Below are positions 1 to 15,824 of a stretch of DNA of 64,000 nucleotides, one piece after another. The DNA is from Cupriavidus sp. D39. GTDB taxonomy: Bacteria > Pseudomonadota > Gammaproteobacteria > Burkholderiales > Burkholderiaceae. Under the pieces are notes generated by a model. The model did not search any database. It was not told the origin of the DNA and saw only the letters and a list, made by a program, of their open reading frames with translations. The stretch is from positions 62,001 to 126,000 of the forward strand of contig NZ_JAPNLE010000011.1 of assembly GCF_026627925.1 (NCBI RefSeq), given 5' to 3'. Position 1 is the first letter of the stretch, and each line of letters starts with the position of its first letter. The position numbers were made by a program, and so were the translations under genes.

Positions 1-732
1 CGCATGAACCGCCAGAGCCTGCAACAGGTGGTCGCGCATCTGCGCTCATTCCTCCTGTTCTGCCACGCCCGTGGCGATATACGCGAGCGCATCGGAACAA
101 TCGACACCCCGCGTACGTATCGTGATGAACTGCCACCACGCGCACTCCCGTGGCGCGACGTTCTCGCGCTACTTCATTCCATCGATCGGTCAAGCATGGT
201 TGGCTGCCGCGATCATGCCATTCTCTATCTGATGGCGCACTATGGTTTGCGGCCTGCTGAGATCGCCGCCTTGCAACTGGATTCAATCGACTGGGCGCAA
301 AGCACTCTGCGCGTTCACCAACGCAAGACCCGCTCGGAGCTTCTCCTTCCTTTGTCCATTCAGGCTACCCGCATACTCAAACATTATCTGAACTTCGGCA
401 GGCCAGTTGTCCGCGGTCGAACAGACCTGTTTCTGCGGTCGCATAGGCCCGCAACTGCATTGTGTCCCACCGCGATCAACGAAATCTATAAAAGAAGCAT
501 GCTCGCGAGCGGATTGGCTCTACAAGGAAGTTCAGCCTACAGCCTGCGGCACTCCTTCGCCATGAGGCTATTGAACAGGGGCGTTGGCCTCAAGGCAATT
601 GGCGACCTGCTGGGCCACCGATCGCTGGAAAGCACATGCGTTTACCTTCGGCTGCAAATGGAGGTGTTAAGAGAAGTCGGCCTGCCACTGGGGTCAGCAA
701 CCACGAACATTCCGCTGTGGAGCTCATCATGA
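1..732 (+). CDS. RIT#1 tyrosine recombinase A (5' partial)
   Basis: Tyrosine site-specific recombinase, first gene of a recombinase-in-trio element. The frame is open from the first base, so the N-terminal DNA-binding domain lies partly outside the window and the first visible ATG (base 4) is probably not the start. The catalytic domain is intact: first Arg in GLRPAEIAAL, the LRHSF box, LLGHRSLEST, and the nucleophile Tyr in CVYLRL. The stop overlaps the next start as ATGA, which indicates translational coupling with recombinase B. It is homologous to the short remnant at 5440-5580. Only its family, not its exact role in the trio, can be read from sequence. Confidence 0.9.
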   Translation, partial: RMNRQSLQQVVAHLRSFLLFCHARGDIRERIGTIDTPRTYRDELPPRALPWRDVLALLHSIDRSSMVGCRDHAILYLMAHYGLRPAEIAALQLDSIDWAQSTLRVHQRKTRSELLLPLSIQATRILKHYLNFGRPVVRGRTDLFLRSHRPATALCPTAINEIYKRSMLASGLALQGSSAYSLRHSFAMRLLNRGVGLKAIGDLLGHRSLESTCVYLRLQMEVLREVGLPLGSATTNIPLWSSS

Positions 733-1700
733 ACCACCCTCAGACACCACTCGATCTTGCTATCGAGCGCTATCTTCTGCACTGGCGAGCACTTGGCCGC
801 CGCTACTTCAAGGAAGAGCAGACCCTGCGGTCATTGAGTCGATTCCTGAACGAGCATGGCTTCAGCGACCTAACCCAGCAGGGCTTCGAGACGTGGTGCC
901 AGGCATTCTCCTCCTTGCGAGGAATCACACAACGACACCGGCAGCTGACAGTGTGCAAGCTGTGTCGCTTCCGGCAACGCACCGAGCCAGAGTGTTTCGT
1001 TCCGGATCGACGTCGATTCACGCGGAGCAGTCCCCATGATCCTCCAGTTATCGTCTCCGGAACAGATGTCGCCAAAATTCTGGACGCTTGTGATCAACTT
1101 CGCGCCACCTGGCAATCCCCGCTTCGACCAGCACTGTGTCGTTTGGGGGTGGCGTTGCTCTACAGCGCGGGGCTTCGTCGTGGCGAGCTCGTACGGTTGA
1201 CCCTAGCCGATGTGAACGAGGTGCAAGGCGTGCTGCATATCCGCGAGTCGAAGTTCCACCGATCACGGTTTGTACCACTGTCGGAGGATGCTCGCGCGGA
1301 AGTTCGCCGATATTTGCGCAAGCGATTGCAGGCGCAGTTCGACTGCGCGCCCGATGCGCCGCTGTTGTGCCACTGTGTCGCAGGGTTTCACGGCTACACC
1401 GGCCAAGGATTCCAGCACCTGTTCGCGGAAGTGATGCGCTCGGCCCGCATTCAGGGTGCTGACGAACGCCAACCCCGGATTCTGGATCTTCGACACAGCT
1501 TCGCGATTGGCGCCTTGCTACGCTGGTACAGGGAGGGGGCTGATGTGCAGGTCAAACTACCCAAGCTGTCGATGTACATGGGTCACATATCGATCCTTTC
1601 TACTGCGCACTACCTGCAGTTGACGCCCTCGCTTGCGCAAGCCGCCAGCGAGCAGTTCGAGGCCGGCTTCGGCAGTCTGATTGATGGAGGTACATCATGA
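729..1700 (+). CDS. RIT#1 tyrosine recombinase B
   Basis: Second recombinase of the trio, 323 aa from the ATG at 729, which overlaps the stop of gene A by ATGA; a longer in-frame start at 636 would run deep into gene A and is unlikely. N-terminal SAM-like core-binding region, then the catalytic domain with Arg in YSAGLRRGELVRL, a DLRHSFAIG box and MGHISILSTAHYLQ holding the late His and the Tyr. Its closest relative in the window is the product of 5577-6554; both have the ESKFHxSRxVPLS segment. It overlaps gene C by ATGA, so the three genes are probably one transcript. Confidence 0.92.
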   Translation: MNHPQTPLDLAIERYLLHWRALGRRYFKEEQTLRSLSRFLNEHGFSDLTQQGFETWCQAFSSLRGITQRHRQLTVCKLCRFRQRTEPECFVPDRRRFTRSSPHDPPVIVSGTDVAKILDACDQLRATWQSPLRPALCRLGVALLYSAGLRRGELVRLTLADVNEVQGVLHIRESKFHRSRFVPLSEDARAEVRRYLRKRLQAQFDCAPDAPLLCHCVAGFHGYTGQGFQHLFAEVMRSARIQGADERQPRILDLRHSFAIGALLRWYREGADVQVKLPKLSMYMGHISILSTAHYLQLTPSLAQAASEQFEAGFGSLIDGGTS

Positions 1701-2722
1701 AACCCGATCGGCCGAACTCATTGGGCAAGGCGCTCGTTCGGTTTTTCCAGGAGTATTTGCCGAACCTGCGGGGAATGAGCTCTCATACGATCCACGGCTA
1801 TCGCGATGCCGTTGTTCTATTCTTGCGCTTCGCCTCCGAACAAACCGGCCGGTCCGTGGAGGACCTCGATATGGCGGATCTCAATGCCGAACAAGTGGTC
1901 GCGTTTCTGGATTTCCTCGAGCGCGAACGACGTAATGGCATCTCGACCCGCAATGCCCGCCTTGCGGCACTGCACTGCCTCGCCCATTTCCTCGCCGGTG
2001 AGCATCCGGAACGCTTGAGCCAGTTACAACGCGTTCTCGGTGTTCCGTTCAAACGCGGCACAACGCAACATACGATCGAATATCTGGAAGCCAACGAGGT
2101 CAAGGCGCTGTTGTGCCAGATTGACCGTTCAACGCGTTCGGGCCAACGCGACTACGCGTTATTCGCATTGATGTTCAACACCGGCGCGCGCGTTCAGGAA
2201 GTACTCAACCTTCGCCGATGCGATATCCGGACGGAGCCACCGTATCAGGTGAGACTGCTGGGCAAAGGTGGCAAAGTAAGAACCTGTCCGATCTGGGCCA
2301 ACACTGCTTCGCTTTTGCGCGGTCTGTCGCAGGCACTACCGGATACGCAGGATAGCCAGGCCACGCTGTTTCGCAACGAGCGGGGTGGTAAATTGACGCG
2401 CTTTGGAGTCGGCTATCTTCTCCGCAAATATGTTGCGGGAGCAGCCACAACCGTCGACACGTTGCGCAACAAGCGCATTCATCCTCACTCGGTTCGGCAT
2501 AGTACTGCTGTCGCGCTTCTGAAGGCCGGCGTTGACTTTGCCACCATCAGTCAATGGCTCGGGCATGCGAGCCTGAACACGACCATGGTGTATGCGCGCG
2601 CAGACCTCGATCTGAAACGGCAGGCATTGACGCAGGTCTTTCCGGATGTACTGGCAGCGTCGGCACCGGGACGGCTTACGCACGGAGCCGCCGACCTGCT
2701 CGGATGGTTGCGTCACCTTTGA
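1697..2722 (+). CDS. RIT#1 tyrosine recombinase C
   Basis: Third trio recombinase, 341 aa, starting in the ATGA overlap with gene B. It has the compact XerC/D-like layout: N-terminal core-binding domain (about 1-105, SSHTIHGYRDAV) and a catalytic domain with TGARVQEVLNLR (first Arg), GKGGKVRTCPI (Lys hairpin), HPHSVRHSTAV (His-Arg box) and LGHASLNTTMVYARAD (His and Tyr). All catalytic positions are present. It is the last gene before the element's 3' terminal motifs at 2731-2812. The equivalents at 6551-7579 and 28401-29396 occupy the same position in their trios. Confidence 0.93.
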   Translation: MKPDRPNSLGKALVRFFQEYLPNLRGMSSHTIHGYRDAVVLFLRFASEQTGRSVEDLDMADLNAEQVVAFLDFLERERRNGISTRNARLAALHCLAHFLAGEHPERLSQLQRVLGVPFKRGTTQHTIEYLEANEVKALLCQIDRSTRSGQRDYALFALMFNTGARVQEVLNLRRCDIRTEPPYQVRLLGKGGKVRTCPIWANTASLLRGLSQALPDTQDSQATLFRNERGGKLTRFGVGYLLRKYVAGAATTVDTLRNKRIHPHSVRHSTAVALLKAGVDFATISQWLGHASLNTTMVYARADLDLKRQALTQVFPDVLAASAPGRLTHGAADLLGWLRHL

Positions 2723-2812
2723 GGGTATTGTTATGTGGAGCGCGAAGCGACCTATCAGCGTCTACGCTTGACTACCGCTTCGTAGCTTCACATCTCGGAG
2801 GACTTCACATTA

Positions 2813-3220
2813 GTCGATCAGCAGCACGCAACGACGGCGACTGGCGTCCAGATGGGCCAGCCAGCGTTCGCGCAAGGCCTTGAAGCCACCCCAGCGGTTC
2901 TGCGGCTTGATCGGCACCGCAAAGATGTCGCTCAGCTCCCGGTAGAAGTCGGAGAGGCTGCTCTGTGGGTGGGTAATCGAGCCCACCATCAGGTCGGGCA
3001 GACGGGTCAGGCGCTGATGGAGTAGGCGCAAGGCGATGCTCTTGCCGGAACCGGGATCGCCATGCACCATGGCGAAGCCGCCTTCGCGTGCCAGGCCGTT
3101 CTCGATGCGCCAGCAGAAGTGATCGAGTCTGGGGTTCACGAAGACCGCTTCGACGGGGATGTCCTGCGCAAAGGGGTTGAACTTCAGGCCGTACAAGGCC
3201 AGCAGATTGGGTTGCATCAT
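2813..3220 (-). pseudogene. Transposon AAA ATPase (ExeA/TniB-like), truncated by RIT#1
   Basis: N-terminal 136 residues of an AAA ATPase that serves as target-selection or activator subunit for the adjacent DDE transposase. It starts MMQPNLLALYGLKFNPF, typical of ExeA/TniB-like transposition ATPases. The Walker A motif is GDPGSGKS and the sequence runs to CVLLID, the Walker B strand, where RIT#1 begins; everything after the Walker B Asp is missing from this window. The ATG overlaps the stop of the transposase gene (3217), so the two were co-translated. Non-functional as it stands. A related ATPase fragment is at 21906-22169. Confidence 0.85.
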
Positions 3221-4647
3221 GGCTTCGCAGGCGGAGTCGGGGGCAGATAGGCGGGAGGCAAACCAGTGGCGGCGTGTTCGGCGAGCAACTGGCGCAGCAA
3301 GGGCGCGATGCCGTCCGGGCTGGTTTCGGCTGCGGGTGCGACCCGCACTCGCCCGCGCAGCCCATCGGCATTGGCAGACTTATCCAGTGGGAAGACGGCA
3401 ACCAGTGGCGTGCCGGTGCGCGCATCGACCAGTTCCACTTGGGAGAGGTCCCAGCGCGCATAGTGCAGGCAGACCTGCTCCAGATGGCGATAGGCGGACG
3501 GCACCTCGAAGCGCACGGCGTTGAGGGTGAAGGTGCCATCGGAACGGCGCTGGCGGCGATGTTCCTGGATCCGGAAGGCCCGGCGTAACGCCAGCGCCTC
3601 CGGGCAGGTCCGCGACACGTCGGCGCAAGACAGGTAGCGTTCGAGCGGCGCCGCGCCGAGCTCAGAGTGTGGCTTGCGATGGTATTCCTGCTCGACCCAG
3701 GCTTGGGTGGCCAGGTTCAGCTTGTCCAGCGTCAGATCAGGGTCGCCTTCGAGCATGGCCATCAGTCTGGATTCAACCTGCGCCCAGAAGCTCTCCTGCT
3801 TGGCATTCTGATACGGAGAATAAGGTAAGGTGGTCTGGTGCAGAATGCCCAGATGGGCAAGTCCCTCAGTAAATTCGTCGGCCAGCATGGCTGCACCGTT
3901 ATCGCTCATGATGGCCCTTGGCAGGCCACGCTTCATGAGCGCCTGCGAGACGCCGTGTACCAGCGATGCGGTCGTTTCGTCGAGGAACCACTGTAGGTGG
4001 CAGACCAGCCGGGAGTGATCGTCCATGACACACAGCAGCAAGGGCTTGTGCCACTGACCATCGGGCGTGAGGACCTTGCGCGAGCCGTGGTGGAAGTCCA
4101 GGTGCCAGAGCGCGGCCACGTGATCGACTTCGTAGCTGCGCACCTCCCGTTGTTCGCGCCGGGCGGCCGCGGCGATGGCGCCAGGGGTGGTCGAGCGTGG
4201 GGTCTTCTGGCGCACGAGGCCGTGGGCTTTGAGGTACCGGCAGACCGTCGTGTAGGAAGGCAGCACGATCGGCGTGCCCTTGAGGGCGGCGACGAGGTTG
4301 TCGTAGTGCAGTTGCATGCTCCAGCCGGGATGGGCGCGGTACTGTGCCACCAGCACGTCGGTGATGGCGGCGATCATGCTGGGGAAGTGGCCGTAATCGT
4401 CGCGCAGTCGATTCTTGAGTTGGGCGACTGGGTCGTGGACATAACGCGCGCGATAGAACCAGCGCTCGATGGTGGACGCGCCGAAGCGGACGTCGGCGCC
4501 GGTGACGGGATGGCGCCAGACCTTGGCCGCCAGCGCCTGCAAGGCGTCCTGCAGCGCGCCCTTGCCCGGCGGCGAGGCCAGCAATGGGCCGATGACCGAG
4601 AAGCGCAGGCGCGCCCATCGGTTACGGTGATCGATGGATAGTGACAT
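3217..4647 (-). CDS. DDE (rve-type) transposase of three-gene element
   Basis: 476-aa DDE recombinase with an integrase catalytic core. Visible landmarks: N-terminal helix-turn-helix region, then LWHLDFHHGS (first Asp), IMSDNGAAM (second Asp) and YSPYQNAKQESFW (Glu), followed by a Mu-transposase-like C-terminal beta domain (about 370-440). It ends overlapping the ATPase start. The gene order zinc-finger protein, DDE transposase, ATPase is repeated at 24659-21906. The length and all catalytic residues suggest the protein could be active, but its ATPase partner is broken. The family is best described as IS21/Tn7-related rve transposases; a named IS family cannot be fixed without a database. Confidence 0.88.
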   Translation of the reverse strand: MSLSIDHRNRWARLRFSVIGPLLASPPGKGALQDALQALAAKVWRHPVTGADVRFGASTIERWFYRARYVHDPVAQLKNRLRDDYGHFPSMIAAITDVLVAQYRAHPGWSMQLHYDNLVAALKGTPIVLPSYTTVCRYLKAHGLVRQKTPRSTTPGAIAAAARREQREVRSYEVDHVAALWHLDFHHGSRKVLTPDGQWHKPLLLCVMDDHSRLVCHLQWFLDETTASLVHGVSQALMKRGLPRAIMSDNGAAMLADEFTEGLAHLGILHQTTLPYSPYQNAKQESFWAQVESRLMAMLEGDPDLTLDKLNLATQAWVEQEYHRKPHSELGAAPLERYLSCADVSRTCPEALALRRAFRIQEHRRQRRSDGTFTLNAVRFEVPSAYRHLEQVCLHYARWDLSQVELVDARTGTPLVAVFPLDKSANADGLRGRVRVAPAAETSPDGIAPLLRQLLAEHAATGLPPAYLPPTPPAKP

Positions 4648-5308: not shown

Positions 5309-5439
5309 TGCTGGACACAATAAAGGCGACATCTTCTCTCAGGGCAGTGCTTGCACGATCCCTGAGGGAAGCTCTCCGGCTTCCCTCATCGTGCTTGATC
5401 AAATCTCACAGATTCGACATCACAAACGCCGCTCATGCT

Positions 5440-5580
5440 CAGAAGACGATCGGCGATCTGCTTGGTCACGACTGCCTGGAGAGCACGTGCGTCTATCTTC
5501 GCCTGCATGTGGAGGCGCTGCGACATGTCGCCTTACCCGTCCCTTGTTGTGGCCACGTCTCGACGAAGGAGGCATCATGA
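5440..5580 (+). pseudogene. RIT#2 recombinase A remnant (C-terminus only)
   Basis: Only the last ~46 codons of a RIT gene A survive: KTIGDLLGHDCLESTCVYLRL matches the end of the protein at 1-732 and includes the late His and the Tyr. Everything upstream was displaced by the three-gene DDE element. The stop overlaps the start of gene B as ATGA, as in RIT#1, which fixes the identity. Confidence 0.85.
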
Positions 5581-6554
5581 ACGACCATGTCGCGTCAACT
5601 GCGCTTGATCCCGTCATCACTCGATACCTTGCGCACCGCCGAGCGCTGGGACGTCAATACGACATGCAGGAACGTACCTTGCACTCGCTGACGAACTTCC
5701 TGGTCCAGGCTGGCGAATCGGACCTGAGTAGCGGGCTATTCGAATCGTGGTGTAGGATGTTTGAGTCGCTCACCGCGAATGTGCGCCGGGCCCGCCAGGT
5801 TGCCGTGCGCAACTTCTGCCTCTACCGGCAACGTACTGAGCCCCGGTGTTTCGTGCCGGACATCAACCGGTTTGCGCGGACGCAGCCGCCTCCCGCGCCA
5901 ACTATCCTGACTCCTGCGCAGGTGGGTCAGTTACTCGAACTTGCGGACACGCGCGAGGCCACGGCGACATCGCCATTACGACCGTATGTCCTGCGCCTGG
6001 CGCTTGTACTGCTGTACACCGCTGGGCTCAGGCGAAGAGAGCTGGTACGGTTGACGCTGGCCGATGTGGACGCGCACGCTGGGGTCCTGCGCGTGCGGGA
6101 ATCGAAGTTTCACAAATCGAGGTGGGTTCCGCTTTCGTGCGGTGCCCGGCGGGAACTATGCCGCTACCTCGTGCACCGCCTGGCCACCCCGCTCGACACG
6201 ACGCCGTCGTCACCGTTACTGTGCAATATGCACCATGGTCTGCGGGGCTACACTGGATCAGGATTGCGTCGCGGTATCATGGAACTATTGCATGATGCCG
6301 GCATATGGGATGTCGACGGACGTGTTCCTCGCATTCAGGATTTTAGGCACTCCTTTGCAATTGAAGTTCTGATGCGATGGTACCGACAGGGTGCTGATGT
6401 TCAGTCCAACCTGCCAAAGCTCGCACTTTACATGGGTCACGTCTCAATCGTGTCGACGGCCTACTATTTGCGCTGGACTCCTGAACTCCAGGAGCTGGCC
6501 AGTAATCGGTTCGCCAAGCAATTTGGTTATCTTGTCCGAGGAGAGCAGCGATGA
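5577..6554 (+). CDS. RIT#2 tyrosine recombinase B
   Basis: 325-aa recombinase from the ATG at 5577, which has an AAGGAGG ribosome-binding site and overlaps the gene A stop by ATGA. It has the same domain plan as RIT#1 B: YTAGLRRRELVRL with the first Arg, RESKFHKSRWVPLS, QDFRHSFAIEVL with the His-Arg box, and MGHVSIVSTAYYLRW with the late His and Tyr. Catalytic positions look complete. Without gene A the trio is probably unable to mobilise by itself. Confidence 0.9.
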   Translation: MNDHVASTALDPVITRYLAHRRALGRQYDMQERTLHSLTNFLVQAGESDLSSGLFESWCRMFESLTANVRRARQVAVRNFCLYRQRTEPRCFVPDINRFARTQPPPAPTILTPAQVGQLLELADTREATATSPLRPYVLRLALVLLYTAGLRRRELVRLTLADVDAHAGVLRVRESKFHKSRWVPLSCGARRELCRYLVHRLATPLDTTPSSPLLCNMHHGLRGYTGSGLRRGIMELLHDAGIWDVDGRVPRIQDFRHSFAIEVLMRWYRQGADVQSNLPKLALYMGHVSIVSTAYYLRWTPELQELASNRFAKQFGYLVRGEQR

Positions 6555-7579
6555 AACGGCGCTCATATTCCGATGAATTCGGTCGGATCCTTGCCCGATT
6601 TTTCCAGGATTATCTGCCCGCGTTGCGAGGAATGAGCCGGCACACAATTCATAGCTATCGCGACACGCTGGTACTCCTGTTGAGATTTCTCAGTGCGAAG
6701 CGACACTGCGGGATTGAACGCCTGGATCTTGCCGCGATCACCGCGGAATCGGTCGGACAGTTCCTGACATCTCTCGAGCGAGACCGGCACAACGGCATTG
6801 CGACGCGCAATATCCGGCTTGCTGCGATTCATACATTCGCGCGGTTCCTGGCAACTGAACGTCCTGAACACCTGGCGGCGTCGCAGGCAATCCTCGGCAT
6901 TCCATTCAAACGCGGTGCCCGGTCAGCGCCGATCGAGTATCTCGAGCCGGATGAGGTCGAGGCGCTGCTGAATGCGGTCGATCGAACGACCGCCGCCGGA
7001 CGGCGAGATTACGCCTTGCTGTCGCTCATGTTCAATACCGGTGCAAGGGTGCAGGAGGTACTCGACCTTCGTTTGTGCGACCTGCGCGTGCAGCGGCCGT
7101 GCCAGGTCAGACTGCAAGGCAAGGGGAACAAGGTGCGCGTCTGCCCCATCTGGCCGCAGACTGCCAGGTTGCTGGAGCGGCTCGTCGAAGAGCGCCCGCA
7201 TCCCCTTGACGTGAACGCGGCACTGTTTGTCAATAGTCGCGGCGACAAGCTTACCCGCTTTGGGGTCCGTTACCTGCTTCGCAAGCATCTGGTCGCGGCC
7301 GAAGCGGTCGTACCTACCCTCAGGGAGAAACGCATCCACCCGCACTCTCTAAGGCATACGACTGCGGTCAGCATGTTAAAGTCGGGCGTGGACTTCCCAA
7401 CGATCAGCCAATGGCTGGGTCACGCGAGTCTCGATACAACGATGCGCTATTCGAAAGCAGACATCGACATGAAGCGCCAGGCGCTCCTACAAGTGTTCCC
7501 CGACATATTAACGATGGCGCCGACTGACCGCCGAACATTTGAACGCCTGCCGATTATCGAGTGGTTGAAGCGGCTCTGA
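6551..7579 (+). CDS. RIT#2 tyrosine recombinase C
   Basis: 342-aa XerC/D-like recombinase with an ATGA overlap to gene B. Motifs: TGARVQEVLDLR (Arg), GKGNKVRVCPIW (Lys hairpin), HPHSLRHTTAV (His-Arg), LGHASLDTTMRYSKAD (His, Tyr). It is collinear with the protein at 1697-2722, including the FKRG segment and the KRQALLQVFPDIL tail. It precedes the 3' end motifs of RIT#2 at about 7583-7664. Confidence 0.92.
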   Translation: MKRRSYSDEFGRILARFFQDYLPALRGMSRHTIHSYRDTLVLLLRFLSAKRHCGIERLDLAAITAESVGQFLTSLERDRHNGIATRNIRLAAIHTFARFLATERPEHLAASQAILGIPFKRGARSAPIEYLEPDEVEALLNAVDRTTAAGRRDYALLSLMFNTGARVQEVLDLRLCDLRVQRPCQVRLQGKGNKVRVCPIWPQTARLLERLVEERPHPLDVNAALFVNSRGDKLTRFGVRYLLRKHLVAAEAVVPTLREKRIHPHSLRHTTAVSMLKSGVDFPTISQWLGHASLDTTMRYSKADIDMKRQALLQVFPDILTMAPTDRRTFERLPIIEWLKRL

Positions 7580-7664
7580 AACTTATGTGGAGTCCGCGTC
7601 CGGGATACCGGCTGTCACCATGCCTCGATCGGCCGGACTCTACATAACTGGGCACTGCACATAG

Positions 7665-8141
7665 GTCAATGACCAGCACGTCCGGGGTTGCATAGCGGTG
7701 CAGGCGTCGGCGCAGGGCCGAGTCGCTGTCGAGCGCGGCCAGTTCGCCGAGCATCTGGCCGGCGGTGGTGAACAGCGCGGTATGACCGTGCACCAGCGCC
7801 TGATAGGCCAGATTCAGCGCCAGCGTCGACTTGCCGACGCCGTTCGGGCCGATCAGCACGACGTTGGCTTTATCCTTGAGGAACTCGAGCGACATCAGTT
7901 CCTCAACGGTGGCCCGGTCGCAGCGCGATGGCCAGGTCCAATCGAAGTCGCACAGTGACTTGAAGTTGCCCAGACGGGCATCCCGGATGCGTCGTTCCAG
8001 CGAGCGACGGGCACGCTCTTCTTCTTCCCACTGCAGCAGCGGCGCGACCCATGGCTCGATCGCAACCTCCGGCCAGTGCGCCAGCAGTCCAACCAGGCGC
8101 AAGGCGTTCGCCCGGGCTTGCAGGTTCTCAGGCGTGGTCAT
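7665..8141 (-). pseudogene. istB: IS21 helper ATPase IstB, truncated by RIT#2
   Basis: IS21 IstB AAA+ helper of transposition, 159 residues present from the ATG at 8141 (MTTPENLQ), which overlaps the end of istA. It has the N-terminal helical domain, Walker A GPNGVGKST and the run to DVLVID (Walker B), where RIT#2 interrupts it; the remaining ~90 residues expected for IstB (about 250 aa) are absent here. Residues after VID in the open frame come from the RIT end. Inactive. Confidence 0.88.
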
Positions 8142-8656
8142 CGGCCTCTCCCGTGAGTTGGTCATAGATGTCGAGCCGGTGGGGTGTCACCGGCCTGTCC
8201 TTGTGCCGGACGTGCTCGGGCAGATTGACGAGCACTGGCGGAGGCGCGTGTCGCGCCTCGCGCCGGCGTTCCAGCGCCAGACGCACTGGGTTCTGGTGTG
8301 GTGCGGCATCGCTGGCGAGCGTTTCGTCGATCGCTGCCTGCAGTTCGGCAGCGCCATAGCGGTCCAGCAGCCGCAGCAGGTGGGTGGTGATATTGCCCAG
8401 ATTGCCGCCCCGTTCAGCGGCGCGCAGCATCAGCGCCTGGCTGGCCGGCACGGCTCTGGTGAGATGGTCGAGGCCGCGATGGTGGCGGGCTTCGCGTTTG
8501 CGCGCAACGAGGGCGTCAATGTGGGCGGCAATCTCGATCTGCGCGCCGCGATCGTAACTGCGCCCATGGGTGGCGAGCAGATCGGCACCATCGAGAATGC
8601 GTACCTGGCGGGGATCGGCCCGTACCGTGAGTGTGCGCTGCACATGGGTGTGCGGG
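8128..8656 (-). pseudogene. istA: IS21 transposase IstA, C-terminal fragment
   Basis: C-terminal part of IstA, entered from the Tn554-like element boundary: IPHTHVQRTLTVRADPRQVR is the usual IstA sequence after the NDYT segment seen at 15832-16441. The fragment ends with the istA stop overlapping istB. Together with 15832-16441 and 20758-21116 it rebuilds one istA reading frame. Confidence 0.85.
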
Positions 8657-8834: not shown

Positions 8835-9197
8835 CTAGCGCGGCTGCAAGGGCAGGACGCTACCGCCACGCAGCGCGGCCAGTTCCTTGCGCAGGCGGAA
8901 CACCTGATGCAGCAGAGCAAGTTCACGAGCCAGCGATTCGTCAAGCTGTGCCTGCAGATCCTTCGCGTCGCCCTTTGCGCGGTTCAGACGCTCGGTGAGC
9001 TCGAGCTTCGGGCGCCCGGCCACTGCGTTGGCCGCGTCGATCGCTGCGATCAGTTCGGTGAACTGTGGGCGCGACTTCTTGATGCTGCCCTTCTTGCGGC
9101 CCGCCTCGATCGCCACGGTGTCGTTGTTGATACGCGCACCCTTGCGGTTCTTCAGCCGCTCAAGGGCGGCATAGTAGTCGGTCATGGCGCCGCTCAT
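8835..9197 (-). CDS. Small coiled-coil protein D (TnpC-like)
   Basis: 120-aa charged helical protein, start at 9197 overlapping the end of gene C. It shows a predicted HTH-like N-terminus (IEAGRKKGSIKKSRPQFTELI) and a long coiled coil (about 55-110, LELTERLNRAKGDAKDLQAQ). Size and last place in a recombinase operon match TnpC of Tn554-type transposons, which influences transposition frequency and orientation. The call rests on context and shape, not on specific residues. Confidence 0.7.
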   Translation of the reverse strand: MSGAMTDYYAALERLKNRKGARINNDTVAIEAGRKKGSIKKSRPQFTELIAAIDAANAVAGRPKLELTERLNRAKGDAKDLQAQLDESLARELALLHQVFRLRKELAALRGGSVLPLQPR

Positions 9198-9686
9198 GCT
9201 GCCTCCGGTTTGATCAGTTTCTCCTGCGCGTCAAGCAGTCGTTGAAGCACCTGCGCCTCGATCCGGTATTCGACGCTCGTCTCATCGACCGCGCGCAGCT
9301 TCGCGACCGTAACCTGCTGCGCGTTGATCACGCGCCGAAGCTTCGATGGCACGACCACGAGGTTACGGCAGTCCGATTCAAGGCAATCCAGACGCATCCA
9401 GTCGAGCGGCGTCGACTTGCACTGCTCGACACTGGCGCAGCCGCCCAGCACCGTCTCGCGGTACGCCAGCTCGCCCTTCACGAACATCCTCACCGTCTGC
9501 TCGCGTGAGTAGACCGACACAGGCGAGGCCTGCACGGCACGGCTCTGCGTCCACGCTGCGTGGCCGCCGAACAGCCGCTCGTCAGAGAACAGCACCTGCT
9601 CGGCGTATGCAAGGTACTCGGACAGGCCCTGTGCCCCGGCCCATTCCTTCGCGAAGTGGGTCTTGTCGGCGTCGATGAAGCCCTTA
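9194..9686 (-). pseudogene. Recombinase-module protein C, C-terminal part
   Basis: Continuation of the protein at 11025-12418 beyond the ISAzo13-type insertion. It begins at GFIDADKTHFAKEWAGAQ in the same frame as MYYARGSAFAK on the other side. It contains a Cys pair region (GGCASVEQC...DCLESDC) like the zinc-binding tails of TnpB-type recombinases, and ends in a coiled coil before overlapping gene D. Restored protein C would be about 625 residues. Confidence 0.75.
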
Positions 9687-11024
9687 GGAACTGTCAAAAA
9701 ATAACTTTTACAAGTGGACGTGTTTGTATAGCATGAAAGGATGGATGAAAAAGAAGCTGGAATCGCAGAGAAGTTCAAGTCATTGAGTGAGCTGTTAGAT
9801 GAACAGCAGCGGCGGCTATGGGCGGCCACGGAGGCTCGCGCGTTGGGTTATGGCGGGGTAAGCATCGTTGCGCGAGCGACCGGACTGACGCGTCCGACGA
9901 TCGTTGCAGGACTCAAGGAACTCGACGATGCGAAGGGGCCTGCATCGACAAAGACGCAGCGGCGTGTGAGACGAGCTGGAGCGGGGCGTCCGCGAGTGAC
10001 GCACAGTAATGCAGAGCTGCGTCCGGCGTTGGAGGAACTGGTCGAACCGACCACGCGAGGCGATCCGATGTCGCCGCTGCGCTGGACGTGCAAGAGCGTG
10101 CGGATTCTGGCGTCGGAGTTGACCCGCCAAGGCCACCCAGTCAGCCATCAAAGCGTGAGTGCGTTGTTGCAAGAAGCTGGCTACAGCCTGCAGGCCAATC
10201 GCAAGACACGCGAGGGTGCCTCGCATCCGGACCGCAATGCGCAGTTCGAGCACATCGCCAAGCGTGCCCGGCAATTTCAGCGACGCGGCCAGCCCGTGAT
10301 CTCGGTGGATACCAAGAAGAAGGAACTGGTCGGAGACTTCAAGAATGCCGGGCAAGAGTGGCATCCCAAGGGGCAAGCGCCCCAGGTGCGTGTGCATGAC
10401 TTCCAAGACAAGGAGCTGGGCAAGGCCATTCCATATGGCGTCTATGACCTGAACGCCAACGCCGGATGGGTCAGCGTCGGTGTCGACCACGACACGCCGG
10501 AGTTTGCGGTCGAATCGATCTGCTGTTGGTGGCGACGCATGGGGCGGAAAACCTATCCCGACGCAACCGAGTTGCTGATCACCGCCGATGGAGGCGGCAG
10601 CAACAGTTCGCGCGCACGGCTGTGGAAGGTGGCGCTGCAGCGCATGGCCGATGCCACAGGGCTGAAGATATCGGTGTGTCACTTCCCGCCGGGCACCAGC
10701 AAGTGGAACAAAATCGAACACCGGATGTTCTGCCATATTACCGAGAACTGGCGCGGACACCCTCTCGTGAGCCACGAGGTGATCGTCAACCTGATCGCCG
10801 GCACAACCACCGCGAAGGGGTTGCGCGTGAAGGCTGCTTTGGACAAAAGATCCTATCTGACAGGCGTACAGGTTGACGACTCGACGATGGCGTCGCTGCA
10901 TTTGAAGACCGACAAGTTCCACGGCGACTGGAACTACACACTATCTCCTGCTGCGTCGGTTCGATCCGTAAAATCATCCATCAAGTCGCGCGAAAAGTTG
11001 TAAAAGTTATTTTTTGACAGTTCC
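9687..11024 (+). mobile_element. ISAzo13-type insertion sequence in gene C
   Basis: 1.34 kb insertion with perfect terminal inverted repeats of about 27 bp (9687-9713 and 10998-11024, beginning GGAACTGTCAAAAAATAAC). It is flanked by TTA on both sides (9684-9686 and 11025-11027), consistent with a TA or TTA target duplication. Removing it restores the frame of gene C exactly. It looks recent because both repeats and the transposase are intact. Confidence 0.9.
9741..11003 (+). CDS. ISAzo13-family DDE transposase
   Basis: 420-aa transposase of the ISAzo13 group (Rhodopirellula-type DDE domain), related to IS630. N-terminal HTH region (GVSIVARATGLTRPTI) and a GAGRP linker, then the catalytic triad in ISVDTKKKEL, LITADGGGSN and WNKIEHRMFCH. 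It fills the insertion between the two terminal repeats and stops 21 bp before the right end. Family length and all three acidic residues are present, so it is probably functional. Confidence 0.9.
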   Translation: MDEKEAGIAEKFKSLSELLDEQQRRLWAATEARALGYGGVSIVARATGLTRPTIVAGLKELDDAKGPASTKTQRRVRRAGAGRPRVTHSNAELRPALEELVEPTTRGDPMSPLRWTCKSVRILASELTRQGHPVSHQSVSALLQEAGYSLQANRKTREGASHPDRNAQFEHIAKRARQFQRRGQPVISVDTKKKELVGDFKNAGQEWHPKGQAPQVRVHDFQDKELGKAIPYGVYDLNANAGWVSVGVDHDTPEFAVESICCWWRRMGRKTYPDATELLITADGGGSNSSRARLWKVALQRMADATGLKISVCHFPPGTSKWNKIEHRMFCHITENWRGHPLVSHEVIVNLIAGTTTAKGLRVKAALDKRSYLTGVQVDDSTMASLHLKTDKFHGDWNYTLSPAASVRSVKSSIKSREKL

Positions 11025-12418
11025 TTAGCGAATGCCGAGCCACGAGCGTAGTACATGCTCATCTCCTGCGTGACGTGCTGCAACTGACGTTTGAGCGTCG
11101 GCAGCGTCACGAGTCCGCTCCGATGGGCGTAGAGGGCCAGGGTACGGCGAAGCTGATGGCGCGTGAACGGCCACTGCTGCCCGACCGCGTACTTCGGCTC
11201 GTCTTCCCACGCGCGGTGCATGTCGACACGCTTCAGTTCAGCGATGTCCTCGACCGTGATTGTCGGGAAGACGCGCTCACGAAAGGCTTCGATATCGTTA
11301 TGAACGGTACTCGCCGCCCGGTTTGCTACGTACCCCAAACGCAGCCCCATCCGGCAGAACAGCAGGTGCGAACCGTCCGTCGATTCGGCGTAGCCCTGCG
11401 CGCAGTGCGCACGGTGTGCCTCGCCCGACAGCCGTTGCGCGAGCCTGACGGCACGGGCAGCGAGCTGGCTGGTCACCCAGCATGCGCGCCTGGAACGACC
11501 GCCCGACAGCTTGGTCGTGATGCCCTCGATCGTGTAGTGCGTCACGCCATCCAGACGGGTCTCGCTCAGGCAGTTGTACGGCAGGTTCTCCGCTTCTGCC
11601 GCACGCATGCCGGTGAACGACAGGATGACAAGCTGGCATAGCCCGCCGATCGCCGCTACAAGAAACGACACAACGTAAGGGGAGTCCTTGCACCCGAAGT
11701 GCAAAGCAGTCCTCGCCAGTTCCACAGAGACGCCCGGCCTCTCTCCAGCGTACCTGCGTGCGAGGTAGTCCGACAGCATGTCAGCGACGCCCTCTGCGAT
11801 GCTGAGGTCATGCTCACAGGCCGACAGGAAGTGCTGGTAGATCCGCGTCGGGATGACAGGGTGTTGTGAGTATCCAGCACGTTGCGCGAAGCGCTCGAGC
11901 AGAGGCTTGTGCAGTTGGCCCAGTGGTACGCGCAGCCCTGTGGTCCCGACGCCCAGACGGTGAAGCTTTACCAGAATCGAATGAAGGATCTGGGCCTTCG
12001 TCTCCATCCCGGTTTGCGCCGCATAGTCCAGAACAACAGCGACAGTGGACAGGCCCTCGTAGAGCGTAAGCTGACGTGCGGCGGCAAAGAACGCGAACGC
12101 CCTCAGGTGATTTGAACGAGCGTGTAGCGTACCGGACGCCGGGACCGTATCGGTAACTTCGTGCATCAGAAAGTACATCACCTGCTTCCACTGACGCGTA
12201 GTCGCCTCTGAAAGGGCGCGACTCGCGCCGTCAGGCAGGTGTCCCCTGAAATGGATGTGGGTGCGACGCAGTCCGATCGTATATGCCTGGATGTCCCAGG
12301 CGTCGTCACCAAACAGCGAAACCGCGTTTCCAGCCTTGTCGCGCGTGACGACCGTATCATCCTCGACCCGATACCAGTCGGGGCACTCAGCGATCGGTGA
12401 GATCAGCGTGTTGTTCAT
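11025..12418 (-). pseudogene. Recombinase-module protein C, N-terminal part (split by ISAzo13)
   Basis: First ~465 residues of gene C, start at 12418 in an ATGA overlap with gene B. A recombinase-like catalytic region is recognisable: FTGMRAAEAENL (Arg-type motif), FTRHQLRRTLALYAHRSG (His-Arg box) and MSMYYARG near the expected Tyr. The frame then runs into the ISAzo13-type inverted repeat and ends in foreign sequence. The C-terminal remainder is at 9194-9686. Confidence 0.8.
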
Positions 12419-14295
12419 GCCACTCCCAATTCGTAAAGCTGGTCGAGCTTCGTCGACCAGAAAGCGTCCAGGTTCCCCTCAATATCAACGTCCTGCTCGA
12501 TCTGATTGACCAGCGCGGCGTCGCGCTTACGCAGTTCATCCAGCAGGAAGTCAACGCGGCGCAGCACCGCGCCGAACGAGCTGTCGTACTGCTCGACCGA
12601 TCCAGCACGCCCACTCACGAGCCTGATGCAGTGACGGCAGCCCAGCAGCTTGCGGATGTCGGTGGCGTCGGCGTGCACGCGGTACTGGTCGCAGAAGAGG
12701 CACCCTTCGGTCGAGCGGCAGTCAGGCTGCACGGTGACCGAGTCCGCGATCGGTGCAGGCTTGTGGAACCCGATGCAGATGCCCACCGCGCCCCTGATGC
12801 TGCCAGCTGGGTCGTCGCCGGGCTTCAGCACGGTCTTCTCGACCGAAGCGAGGAACGCGCCCATCTCAGCCTTGTGCGCGGCATCCGTACCGTTGGAGTA
12901 CGAGCGCAGCGCCGTGACCAGCGAGTGCCCCATCAGCGTGGCTGCGACGACAGGGCCGTGGTTGCTCACCGCCCAATCCTGTTTCACCGCACGCCATTGA
13001 CGTGCGCTAATGCGTGGCAGCACGATCCCGAACGTGTCGAGTCGACGGTAAAGCTGAACCAGAAACTGGGGTGAGAGACCCACTGGCTGTCGTCTCTGTG
13101 CAGAACACCCGACTACCATGAACAGTCCGTCGTAGTCTGCGTCCTGCACCAGATACTCGCGCAATGCCAGATACGCCTTGAGCTTCGGCATGAAGCCCAG
13201 CGAGACGGTGAACGTAACGTCCCTACCGCCTGCACGGTACTTGACCTCACGAAACTTCTGACGTGCAACCGACGCATCCTGCAGGCTCGCGGCAAACTCC
13301 GGGCTCCACCTCATGGCCAGCAGTTGTGCGGGGTTGACGCCCGTTTCGGCCAGAAACAGCGCGGCAAAGCAAAAGACCGCCATCGAAGCATGTGAGCGAC
13401 GGATCGGTGACTGCGCGTCCTCGTTCGCCGCCGCAAAATGTTTAGCCGCACGCGTCGCGATGTCCCCCGAACGCTTAAAAGGGTTTTTAGCGCCAGCCTC
13501 CGCCATGCGCATCGTGAGTTCTTCCCGGGTGCGCGGCTCTCCCGTTTCCAGATTCCAGCCGGCCAGGCCGTGCGAGCCGTCGCCTTCGCGACGATGGTGT
13601 CTGTACGGAACAAGGCAAAGACTCTCACCTCGCGCGGTAGTCACGTGCACCGGGTACGGCTTGAAGTCGAGCACCAGCGTGCTGATGCCGCTGAAGAGCG
13701 CGTCAGCCCACGCGAGCAGGGCGGCTTGTGCCCCGGCGTCAGGCACAGCCGTCGGCACAGAAGCATCCAGTTGACGGCGTAGCACCTTCTCATCGGCGCA
13801 GAAGTCGTCGTTTCGAAATAACTCACGTAGCATCGACAACAGATAACGCTGATTGGTGCCGACGGAATTGCGCTTCAGGTTGCCCAGCGAGACCTGTTCG
13901 CGCTTCTCACGGAAGTAGCGATGAACGGCCTCCGCCGTAGCCTTCTCGTGACAAAGCGTCTGATGCAAGCCCTGCCTGTCGGCCCAGTTGACGAACTCAA
14001 GCACGACGCGCAAATACATGGAGATCGTCTCCGGGCGCCTCGTGCCAAGGGTCATACGCCCGGAAATCTGGGTCACCAGCAGGCGCACGACCCTGGCGCG
14101 TTCGCTGCTGAAGCTTGAGTGCTCGAAAGTGTGTCGCGTGCGCTGCGGACTTGACGTGTCACGCGTCAGATAGCAGATCTGACCGATATCGGAACGGCTG
14201 TTGGTGCCTTCCCACTTGAGCAGCGCGCGCTCGGGGTGCAGCAGTGTTGTGCCCTCCGCGAGCGGCATGTGCACTTCCTCGTACTGGCGACTCAT
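12415..14295 (-). CDS. Large recombinase B of Tn554-like element
   Basis: 626-aa TnpB-like recombinase from the ATG at 14295 (MSRQYEEVHM), which overlaps the stop of gene A by 4 bp; an upstream in-frame ATG at 14433 lies inside gene A and was rejected. The middle domain holds FLAETGVNPAQLLAMRW, a divergent Arg-type motif, and LMGHSLVTALRSYSNGTDA, with the late His and a candidate Tyr. The C-terminal CRSTEGCLFCDQYRVHA...LLGCRHCIRL looks like a zinc-binding segment, as in Tn554 TnpB-type proteins. Confidence 0.8.
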   Translation of the reverse strand: MSRQYEEVHMPLAEGTTLLHPERALLKWEGTNSRSDIGQICYLTRDTSSPQRTRHTFEHSSFSSERARVVRLLVTQISGRMTLGTRRPETISMYLRVVLEFVNWADRQGLHQTLCHEKATAEAVHRYFREKREQVSLGNLKRNSVGTNQRYLLSMLRELFRNDDFCADEKVLRRQLDASVPTAVPDAGAQAALLAWADALFSGISTLVLDFKPYPVHVTTARGESLCLVPYRHHRREGDGSHGLAGWNLETGEPRTREELTMRMAEAGAKNPFKRSGDIATRAAKHFAAANEDAQSPIRRSHASMAVFCFAALFLAETGVNPAQLLAMRWSPEFAASLQDASVARQKFREVKYRAGGRDVTFTVSLGFMPKLKAYLALREYLVQDADYDGLFMVVGCSAQRRQPVGLSPQFLVQLYRRLDTFGIVLPRISARQWRAVKQDWAVSNHGPVVAATLMGHSLVTALRSYSNGTDAAHKAEMGAFLASVEKTVLKPGDDPAGSIRGAVGICIGFHKPAPIADSVTVQPDCRSTEGCLFCDQYRVHADATDIRKLLGCRHCIRLVSGRAGSVEQYDSSFGAVLRRVDFLLDELRKRDAALVNQIEQDVDIEGNLDAFWSTKLDQLYELGVA

Positions 14296-15740
14296 GCTGC
14301 CACCGCCGTGTCGAGGGTGCGCGCAACCAGCGTCGACAGATGCGCGCCCCAGCCGTCCTGTACCGCGTCGAACAGCTTGCAATTCTCGCGGTAAGCGAGG
14401 TAGCGCTCGGTCGTAGACGGTTGTACGTGCCACATCAACTGCCGCAACTGATCGAGCGCCCGCGTGTACTTCGTCTCATTCGCTGTCATCGTGTCGACCA
14501 TGTTCAGCCCGAAGGTGGCGCGCAGGTCGTGGAAGCTGAACTCGTACCTGGGGTTGCCAAGCTGCACGCGCATCACGGGCAACAGTTCGTCCCTGATGAA
14601 CTGGCGCACGGCCTGCCCGGTCTTGACATGGCGGCGTACCTGCGGGCCAGCGCTGAGCGGGGCACGCGACGCGCGATCCTCGTAGAGTGGCGCACCGCGA
14701 TGGCTCAAAAAGAGCGGCTGGTCGGGATGATCGCCGCCGTCTGCCAGCTGGCGACGCTTGCGAGCACGATCGCTGTGCACGTAGATGTACAGCCGCTCGT
14801 ACAAACCGCGCGGCAAGTGCAACACGCCCTTGACTCCGCCCTTCGTGTCGATGCCCGTACCCGGCCCGCAGGCGAGACGGATGTCGTCGCCGTGATACCC
14901 GCCAGGCTTGCGCATCACGTGTTTCGCTCGCACGGTCAGTACCGTCTGGATACGAGCGCCTGTCAACAGCGCGAACAGATGAACGAGCGTCATCTCGGTG
15001 TTGCCGAGTGCGGCTAACGATTGGAGCAGCACCGACTGCTCGGAAGAGGACAGTGGGCGCAGGCGACCGCCGTCCTGAATGTGATCGTCCCACGGGTCTT
15101 CGGCGCGCCGACCACTGATCGACAGGTCGGTAGTCTTGACCTCGACCGCGCGGCTGAAGCCCTTCTGGTCCTTGAACTCGATGAAACGGCCAGATTCGAC
15201 CCACGGCGCGTTTGCGGGCCTGAAGCCTGCTTCGGCCATGAGCCAGCGATAGAAACGCACCACGGCACCCATACGACGCCTGGCAACGCCCGGAGACAGT
15301 TCGCCTGCCTGCACAGCCAGCCTGATCGAGGCGCTGTAGCGGTAGGTGGGCCGTTGCCGTTTGTTCGCGGGGAACATCAGCCAGTCGACGTCCTCGTCAT
15401 CGAGATAACGACGGAACGCCACCAGGTCGTCTGCGATGCTGGCGAACGTCAGCATGTTTGGCGACGACTTCGACTCCATCATATCAATGAGCCAGACGTT
15501 TGCCTCAGCCCACGGCGCGCCGTCAGCGAGCCGGACAACGGGAAAGAGAGGGAAAGTGCCTGCGATCCACTGCGGGCGGGCGTCGCGTCGCCTGCCGGTG
15601 TCAGGGTCTGCGAGTGGGACCGTGTGATAGATAGTGCCGCCCTCGGAGGCGGTGATGCTGACCGGCGTCGCACCGGGTGTGTCGCGGTCAACGACCTCGG
15701 TCAGCGGCAGTTGCCGGATGGTCGTTCGTCTTGCTGTCAT
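14292..15740 (-). CDS. Recombinase A of Tn554-like element
   Basis: 482-aa tyrosine recombinase, first gene of the module. Start at 15740 (MTARRTTIRQLPL) because the partial second copy (23505) begins at the same Met. Core-binding domain about 80-190 and catalytic domain with LLTGARIQTVLTVR (Arg), HDLRATFGLNMVD (box II with Arg; the usual first His is preceded by FSFHD) and LMWHVQPSTTERYLAYRE (His, Tyr). Role: DNA strand exchange at the element ends. Downstream coupling to gene B by ATGA. Confidence 0.85.
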   Translation of the reverse strand: MTARRTTIRQLPLTEVVDRDTPGATPVSITASEGGTIYHTVPLADPDTGRRRDARPQWIAGTFPLFPVVRLADGAPWAEANVWLIDMMESKSSPNMLTFASIADDLVAFRRYLDDEDVDWLMFPANKRQRPTYRYSASIRLAVQAGELSPGVARRRMGAVVRFYRWLMAEAGFRPANAPWVESGRFIEFKDQKGFSRAVEVKTTDLSISGRRAEDPWDDHIQDGGRLRPLSSSEQSVLLQSLAALGNTEMTLVHLFALLTGARIQTVLTVRAKHVMRKPGGYHGDDIRLACGPGTGIDTKGGVKGVLHLPRGLYERLYIYVHSDRARKRRQLADGGDHPDQPLFLSHRGAPLYEDRASRAPLSAGPQVRRHVKTGQAVRQFIRDELLPVMRVQLGNPRYEFSFHDLRATFGLNMVDTMTANETKYTRALDQLRQLMWHVQPSTTERYLAYRENCKLFDAVQDGWGAHLSTLVARTLDTAVAA

Positions 15741-15824
15741 CGTGCAGATCCTCTGCTGTGTTTGTGCGGGTGTCCGCTTTAACACAGCCTGCGAGTATCC
15801 GGAAATCGTTCTTCACTTGCGCAT

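Follow-up and report, generated by a model that had tools for sequence, protein, structure and literature searches.

Trio elements at the Walker B codons of transposon ATPases: two RIT insertions in Cupriavidus sp. D39 and their relatives

RIT (recombinase in trio) elements were named in 2009. In the published descriptions, as far as these were available to us, they consist of three adjacent tyrosine recombinase genes on the same strand with short overlaps, span about 3.5 kb and end in terminal inverted repeats, and they are known from a Tn6049-like transposase gene, from the tnpA gene of IS66 and from radC (PMC3414803, PMC2864759). As to their repeats, the same descriptions give a 28-9 bp inverted repeat together with an overlapping palindrome and, beyond these, "no convincing result"; the accessible sections hold no target rule and no demonstrated mechanism, and they mention neither targeting of Walker B nor a site with two cores nor footprints. 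PMC10214605, in the part that we could consult, lists the target specificity of RITs as lacking a formal test, and the available literature (PMC3414803, PMC2864759, PMC10214605, PMC8138268, PMC5385486) states that experimental proof of their mobility is lacking. In the literature searched, which did not extend to Van Houdt 2009 or Ricker 2013, we met with no account of RITs that target Walker B or IstB. RITs as such are already known, and their targeting of Walker B may be new.

Two further groups of elements invite comparison. According to the available part of PMC10214605, Tn554 and the SEs resemble the RITs described below in having several tyrosine recombinases, a specific target and a 6-bp donor-derived footprint, but they differ in their partner gene sets (TnpC or Srap) and have neither a near-palindromic two-core site nor a transposon ATPase as target. 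By analogy, the inner core of the RIT junctions looks like the 6-bp donor footprint of these elements. GInts share with RITs a row of three tyrosine recombinase or recombinase-related genes and site-specific integration, but possess a fourth essential gene, ginD (available parts of PMC5385486 and PMC10214605).

We analyzed a stretch of 64,000 nucleotides from Cupriavidus sp. D39, hereafter the window, which carries two elements of this kind, RIT#1 and RIT#2 (Table 1). RIT#1 has three adjacent tyrosine recombinase genes on one strand, and the products of ritA, ritB and ritC all match the Phage_integrase profile (PF00589). The genes are joined by ATGA overlaps (A-B at 729-732, B-C at 1697-1700), the element measures 3458 bp, and its terminal inverted repeats (right CTTCACATCTCGGAGGACTTCACATTA, left CTTAACATCTCGGACTACTTCACATTA) match at 24 of 27 positions by eye. 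The left end lies outside the window, at L027:9355 (G000:C11:61355). Beyond the three recombinase genes there are only 133 and 90 bp at the ends, with nothing but overlapping frames, which therefore leaves no room for cargo, unlike in GInts.

Table 1. Features of the two RIT insertions and of the genes that they interrupt. Coordinates refer to the window unless a locus is given.
Feature	Position	Strand	Length, profile match or remark
RIT#1, right part: 3' part of ritA, ritB, ritC, right end	1..2812	+	within the window
RIT#1, whole element	L027:9355-12812		3458 bp, of which the initial 646 bp precede the window
Right terminal repeat of RIT#1, CTTCACATCTCGGAGGACTTCACATTA	2786..2812	+	
6-bp core, Ile-Asp codons (ATCGAC) of Walker B	2813..2818	-	
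N-terminal half of the Tn6049-type AAA_22 ATPase split by RIT#1	2813..3220	-	PF13401, 1.9e-10
C-terminal half of the same AAA_22 ATPase	L027:8900-9328	-	PF13401, weak, 5.5e-05
rve-type transposase of the same Tn6049-type transposon	3217..4647	-	PF00665, 3e-10
RIT#2 remnant: 3' tail of ritA, ritB, ritC, right end	5437..7664	+	start approximate
RIT#2, complete ritB and complete ritC	5577-6554 and 6551-7579	+	PF00589
Right terminal repeat of RIT#2, CTCTACATAACTGGGCACTGCACATAG	7638..7664	+	
6-bp core ATTGAC, Ile-Asp codons of the IstB Walker B	7665..7670	-	
N-terminal part of IstB (IS21) split by RIT#2	7665..8165	-	PF01695, 2.3e-29, ends at profile position 160

Both right ends lie base-exactly at the Ile-Asp codons that close the Walker B motif of a transposon ATPase (2812|2813 for RIT#1, 7664|7665 for RIT#2). 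The minus-strand frames are intact up to the break, reading CVLLID in the ORF at 2810-3220 and DVLVID in the IstB ORF at 7554-8165, and in both cases the element starts immediately past the Asp codon. The interrupted genes belong to different families, AAA_22 (PF13401) for RIT#1 and IS21 IstB (PF01695) for RIT#2, and the 16-bp flanks (GTCGATCAGCAGCACG at 2813-2828, GTCAATGACCAGCACG at 7665-7680) are alike at 13 positions, a similarity that two random 16-mers reach or exceed with a chance of 3.8e-6. Unbroken copies of both sites are present in the same genome: CTGCTG-ATCGAC-GAAGCCCAG for RIT#1 (VLLID-EAQ, locus L161, 94% identical over the N-half) and GTGCTGGTC-ATTGAC-GAAGTCGGC for RIT#2 (VLVID-EVG, L234, with the 36 bases before the break identical). 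An initial annotation, made from the letters of the window, had placed both elements exactly at Walker B codons of ATPases from different families, had counted 13 matching flank positions and had located the RIT#1 junction within 2801-2830; all of these readings were borne out.

The RIT#1 insertion could be followed to its other side. At the right end, the 2812/2813 boundary reads CTTCACATCTCGGAGGACTTCACATTA|GTCGAT-CAGCAGCACG, and the left end, read outward, is CTTAACATCTCGGACTACTTCACATTA|GTCGAT|TAACGTTACACATAACGTTA|ATCGAC-GAAGCCCAGG. The ATCGAC codons of the ATPase thus flank the element on both sides (far copy at L027:9323-9328), which amounts to a 6-bp duplication. A third, inverted copy stands directly beside the left end (L027:9349-9354), and with a near-palindromic 20-bp spacer it occupies the side of the C-terminal ATPase half. 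The neighbouring transposase is annotated as IS481 family in relatives. An intact relative of the ATPase-transposase pair, with about 80% DNA identity, occurs on C. metallidurans pMOL28, and DNA of about the same identity, for the transposase as well, on other Cupriavidus plasmids. The C. metallidurans pair is presumably Tn6049. Tn6049 is mentioned for strain CH34 in the accessible parts of PMC3414803 and PMC2864759.

RIT#2 is a remnant. Its ritA is reduced to a tail from about 5437 (by eye against RIT#1) without a Pfam match, and its RitC is 60% identical to that of RIT#1. With most of ritA lost and no left end visible, proof of the insertion is confined to the gene-C junction here. Further along the window, at 8835-15785, several large genes resemble by eye the integrases of GInt-type islands, with no NCBIfam match, and an ISAzo13 transposase (9741-11003) is inserted among them.

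Relatives were drawn from one scan of genome contigs (26 loci), from 298 related genomes, five of which had a match at E 1e-90, and from 26 plasmid regions, hand-picked for diversity among 60 records listed from 505 plasmid records that matched RitC; the underlying plasmid and genome records were searched as well. When 399 genomes across the order were scanned at E 1e-70, the window's own genome was the sole match, and one scan of viral contigs returned a single weak match. Element ends were located automatically by two ACAT-like boxes 17 bases apart, which placed 158 of 165 gene ends and gave 62 distinct flanks; the placed ends belong to 111 locus ids, among which a single place is often covered twice. 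Before counting, L052A was dropped (spurious end pick, ritA truncated), L084A was reassigned by hand from class D to class N, L088C and L050A were set apart by hand as palindromic but not Walker B, and L051/L035, which the end finder had missed, was added by hand as D. Both ends of L068 as well as L069A were left out as too short, L081C/L093C as a junction with an IS91-like element, and L089 and L090, two of the 26 plasmid regions, as well as L101, L102, L106 and L108 because they fall below 50% identity (other ends or targets, or not looked at).

We found the Walker B codon pair at 54 of the 62 distinct flanks, taken over both element ends. The tally comprises 29 N-halves, 25 C-halves, two palindromic flanks outside Walker B and six others. 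These six are L085A, L083A and L082C, which are IS91-like junctions of RITs whose other end lies in Walker B, the second end of L050, and the flanks of L071 and L074. Clustering at 80% identity yields 21 clusters of N-halves (over 25 residues) and 15 of C-halves (over 20). The initial annotation had proposed a broad sample of gene-C-side flanks as a check of its reading. The shared flank and the ATPase bias hold in this sample, in which all 29 N-halves match IstB_IS21 or AAA_22, but each of the two element ends can face either half of the ATPase, which means that the aim is not tied to the gene-C side as such.

Two observations concern the surroundings of these ends. In L127, the same IstB N-half is found on both sides of one RIT in opposite directions, which could arise by recombination between two RIT insertions. 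Moreover, an element with the ends GCAGAGG...TTTTTTG and TTGTACTAAACCGC abuts RIT ends at their terminal CACATA(A) or at the core (C sides of L081 and L082, A sides of L083 and L085); in L082 and L085, the annotation shows a transposase of the IS91 family and an integrase close by. It looks as if an IS91-like element in turn targeted the ends of RITs.

Regarding the identity of the interrupted genes, 25 of the 29 N-halves match IstB_IS21; the other four (RIT#1's own, L054, L055 and L056) match AAA_22. Among the 26 C-side reads, 16 match IstB and five match AAA_22 weakly (E 5e-6 to 4e-3). Those without a match are L053, L131 and L067, which are too short and begin with IDEAQNLPPEFF, LDDWA and IDDWG, respectively, as well as L050 and, by subtraction, L088. 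The breakpoints agree at the level of the profiles: five N-halves scanned singly end at IstB position 160 of 238 and three C-halves scanned singly start at 159, while in AAA_22 the N-half ends at 91 and the C-half starts at 90, of 130. The overlap of two residues corresponds to the duplicated 6-bp core. The close kin of RIT#1 (L053-L055 and C. necator, RitC at least 89% identical to that of RIT#1) reside in AAA_22-type ATPases, L053 by letters only, and the other Walker B users (RitC at most 66% identical) in IstB wherever the family was found. Three Bradyrhizobium elements with about 99% identical RitC (L079, L080 and L121) are located in different IS21 ATPases.

Like RIT#1, the relatives have terminal inverted repeats and a 6-bp core beside each end, and insertions occur in both orientations relative to the ATPase. 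C. necator UYPR2.512 harbours 11 near-identical RITs at the same codons, six with ritC towards the N-half and five reversed. On the far side, that of the C-terminal half, a near-palindromic spacer of about 20 bp lies between two inverted 6-bp cores. In C. necator this spacer is slightly asymmetric: outward from the ritA end it reads TAACGTTATGCGCAACGTTA in five of five placed copies of one orientation (L061 excluded), and outward from the ritC end it is the reverse complement of TAACGTTATGCGCAACGTTA in five of five copies of the other. As spacer orientation follows the RIT in all ten placed copies (of 11), the spacer travels with the element, and inversion in place was rejected as the source of the two orientations. 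Opening of a circle TIR-core-spacer-core'-TIR' at either core would produce both C. necator forms; in-place inversion would not.

Of the 27 palindromic junctions, 25 carry an inner core that matches NTNGAY, the misses being L088 and L050, which had been set apart by hand; the background is 1027 of 127,988 window hexamers (0.8%). Among the 20 insertions for which both outer cores are known, the inner core differs from both in nine. The Bradyrhizobium inner cores CTCGAC, TTGGAT and CTGGAC each also occur as the outer core of RITs with about 99% identical RitC. By this comparison, the inner core may be the footprint of an earlier Walker B home. The outer cores are alike in 12 of the 20 insertions and differ in eight, so the 6-bp duplication is not exact; five of these eight mismatches would be explained if one junction kept the core of the element.

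On the basis of these data, we consider it very probable that the trio of the RIT#1/RIT#2 clade integrates at the (I/L)-D DNA closing the Walker B motif of transposon ATPases (IstB and Tn6049/TniB-like AAA_22), with a two-core circle that we infer from the junctions. In the proposed course of events, the RIT would leave or copy itself as a circle with a near-palindromic junction, and the trio would recombine either core of this circle with the NTNGAY-GAN site of a target. The core chosen would set the orientation, and the unused core would stay behind as a 6-bp trace of the previous home. Leu and Ile codons carry T in the middle and Asp is encoded by GAY, which gives each Walker B motif a partly matching core, and one enzyme set can therefore use many ATPases. 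The benefit for the element would lie in a target that is plentiful, dispensable and itself mobile; the suggestion of the initial annotation that other transposons thereby provide safe targets would be in line with this.

How much the enzyme itself reads can be judged from the bases at the site. All 29 N-halves have T at -8, -2 and core position 1 as well as GA at core positions 3-4, and 28 of them have T at -5; in all of the 24 C-halves, GA follows the core GAY. These bases are invariant because hydrophobic second codon positions, Asp and Asp/Glu fix them, which refines the claim of a shared flank sequence: it is real, but follows from the shared codons (T at second positions plus GAY-GAN). 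Uninterrupted IstB genes (23 distinct sequences, two of them script-anchored on a wrong codon) have nearly the same base profile, so we found no further consensus that tells used ATPases from unused ones. This genome contains 378 instances of the bare motif TNNTNNTNNTNGAYGA, compared with 97 for a backward control. Among the first 100 places by contig, which are not a random choice, six lie in IstB matches (all five) or in the AAA_22 copy, and the other 94 are without assignment. Since the bare motif is far commoner than its IstB and AAA_22 instances, the ATPase bias needs either extra specificity or loss of other insertions.

Three other explanations were weighed against targeting. The match of the two window flanks might be a coincidence or a trivial result of conserved codons beside a randomly placed insertion, given that they share mainly codons conserved in Walker B motifs. 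However, of the 127,970 position-strands in the window, 55 carry hhh(I/L/V)D in frame, a rate of 4.3e-4 for each position and strand, as against the codon pair at 54 of 62 flanks; the sample rules this explanation out, and we assign it a vanishingly small probability. A stronger competitor is survivorship, according to which the trio would accept every NTNNTNNTNNTN-GAY-GAN site, with insertions persisting solely where a transposon ATPase is dispensable. This would account for the fact that the invariant bases are only those set by hydrophobic second positions and GAY-GAN, and it agrees with the 378 genomic sites, of which six among the 100 listed are identified as IstB or RIT#1-type AAA_22. 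Yet many other carriers of the motif would presumably be dispensable as well, and every Pfam-matched Walker B flank is IstB or AAA_22; in addition, the exceptional insertions fit the motif poorly by eye. We therefore regard survivorship as possible but less likely than not to be the cause of the bias. The site is exact whether strict targeting or survivorship holds.

The recurrence could also consist of copies, if an ATPase gene had received a RIT in one or a few events and the transposon had then carried it about. The single strain C. necator UYPR2.512 fits this idea, with 11 near-identical RITs that lie in Tn6049-type copies and, among seven listed N-halves (of 11 scored places), six that are split by a RIT and one (L167) that is intact. 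Judged by their near-identity, these copies in different places would imply past mobility of the RIT or of its carrier, and they may have been spread in part by the Tn6049-type carrier. Against hitchhiking in general stand the 21 N-half clusters, the two ATPase families, both orientations, the occurrence in different ATPases of RITs whose RitC is about 99% identical, and inner cores unlike the present outer cores. A single event as sole cause was rejected in view of the 21 clusters. As closely related elements are seen at the same base of unrelated ATPases, hitchhiking is at most a contributing cause, and as the main explanation we deem it improbable. Targeting of the Walker B codons by the trio is thus the reading that we prefer.

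In a RitC tree of 52 rows, which comprise the unique, stop-free and sufficiently long matches and not every sampled element, RIT#1, RIT#2 and all Walker B users in the tree fall into one group of 28 with a support of 100/100; its first forks are unsettled. Both window elements belong to this Walker B clade by their insertion at (I/L)-D codons of a transposon ATPase. Four clade elements are sited elsewhere. L088 (= L099), a long branch at the base of the group of 28, lies in a parB-like gene with ParB_N in one flank, and L050 (= L034) in a group II intron reverse transcriptase. L071 interrupts a frame ending in TWVM without a Pfam match, and by eye its end may have lost three bases. L074 is a RIT remnant in a tyrosine recombinase gene and too short for the RitC tree. 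The idea that the trio recognises a target coding for a conserved AAA+ motif is hence supported by the 54 flanks at the Walker B pair, but does not extend to these four elements.

The window's genome contains further trios of similar layout, which are found within or beside other mobile genes. The C9 trio (L031, G000:C9:56976-62400) is found at WFYR in the transposase (rve) of a second Tn6049-type copy, the ATPase of which is uninterrupted; this is reminiscent of the published A. ferrooxidans case. The C1b trio (L029, 7353-11156) interrupts the ritB gene (PF00589) of a different RIT where it encodes the conserved motif IRESKFY. A third trio (L030) is located beside an IS66-like frame by eye, and no target could be made out from the flanks of the C11/C1a-type trio. 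For the C1b type, 12 distinct C-flanks were listed, the genome's own included. Five of these (L186, L188, L191, L194 and L199) lie in IS66 TnpC at (V/I)DNN, as assigned by Pfam with the position by eye, and for L186 this placement needs a frame change. L189 starts at the other half of the motif (N-HIEGQIRP, by eye), the flank of L195 falls into the C-terminal part of IS66, and L192, L196, L197 and L201 are without an assigned target. Among the C9-type trios listed, L178 is in an IS91 transposase, L180 and L181 are in serine recombinase genes (opposite halves), L177 is by an intron reverse transcriptase, and L179 is without an assigned target.

On small numbers, these cases support the notion that each RIT clade has its own motif; the four different targets of the C9 type speak against a strict one-motif rule there. 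With some reserve, we lean towards a wider reading in which RITs would be transposon-seeking transposons, the trio of each clade being set to one conserved, often catalytic, motif of a mobile gene through a near-palindromic two-core circle that works either way. The motifs in question would be Walker B of IstB and TniB-like ATPases, (V/I)DNN of IS66 TnpC, WFYR of the Tn6049-type transposase, IRESKFY of RitB, and motifs of serine recombinases, IS91 transposases and intron reverse transcriptases.

The base-exact target, the two-core junction and the putative footprint make the reaction of the trio directly testable, as attB and attP can be built. If the proposed mechanism is true, RITs might also serve as a compact, orientation-neutral integration tool. 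For the element, the codons that a rival's essential enzyme family must keep would be a way to find plentiful, dispensable and mobile homes. The RIT would thus exploit other mobile elements through one of the coding motifs that they conserve best and, if this holds true, would act as a natural brake on IS21 and Tn6049-type transposons.
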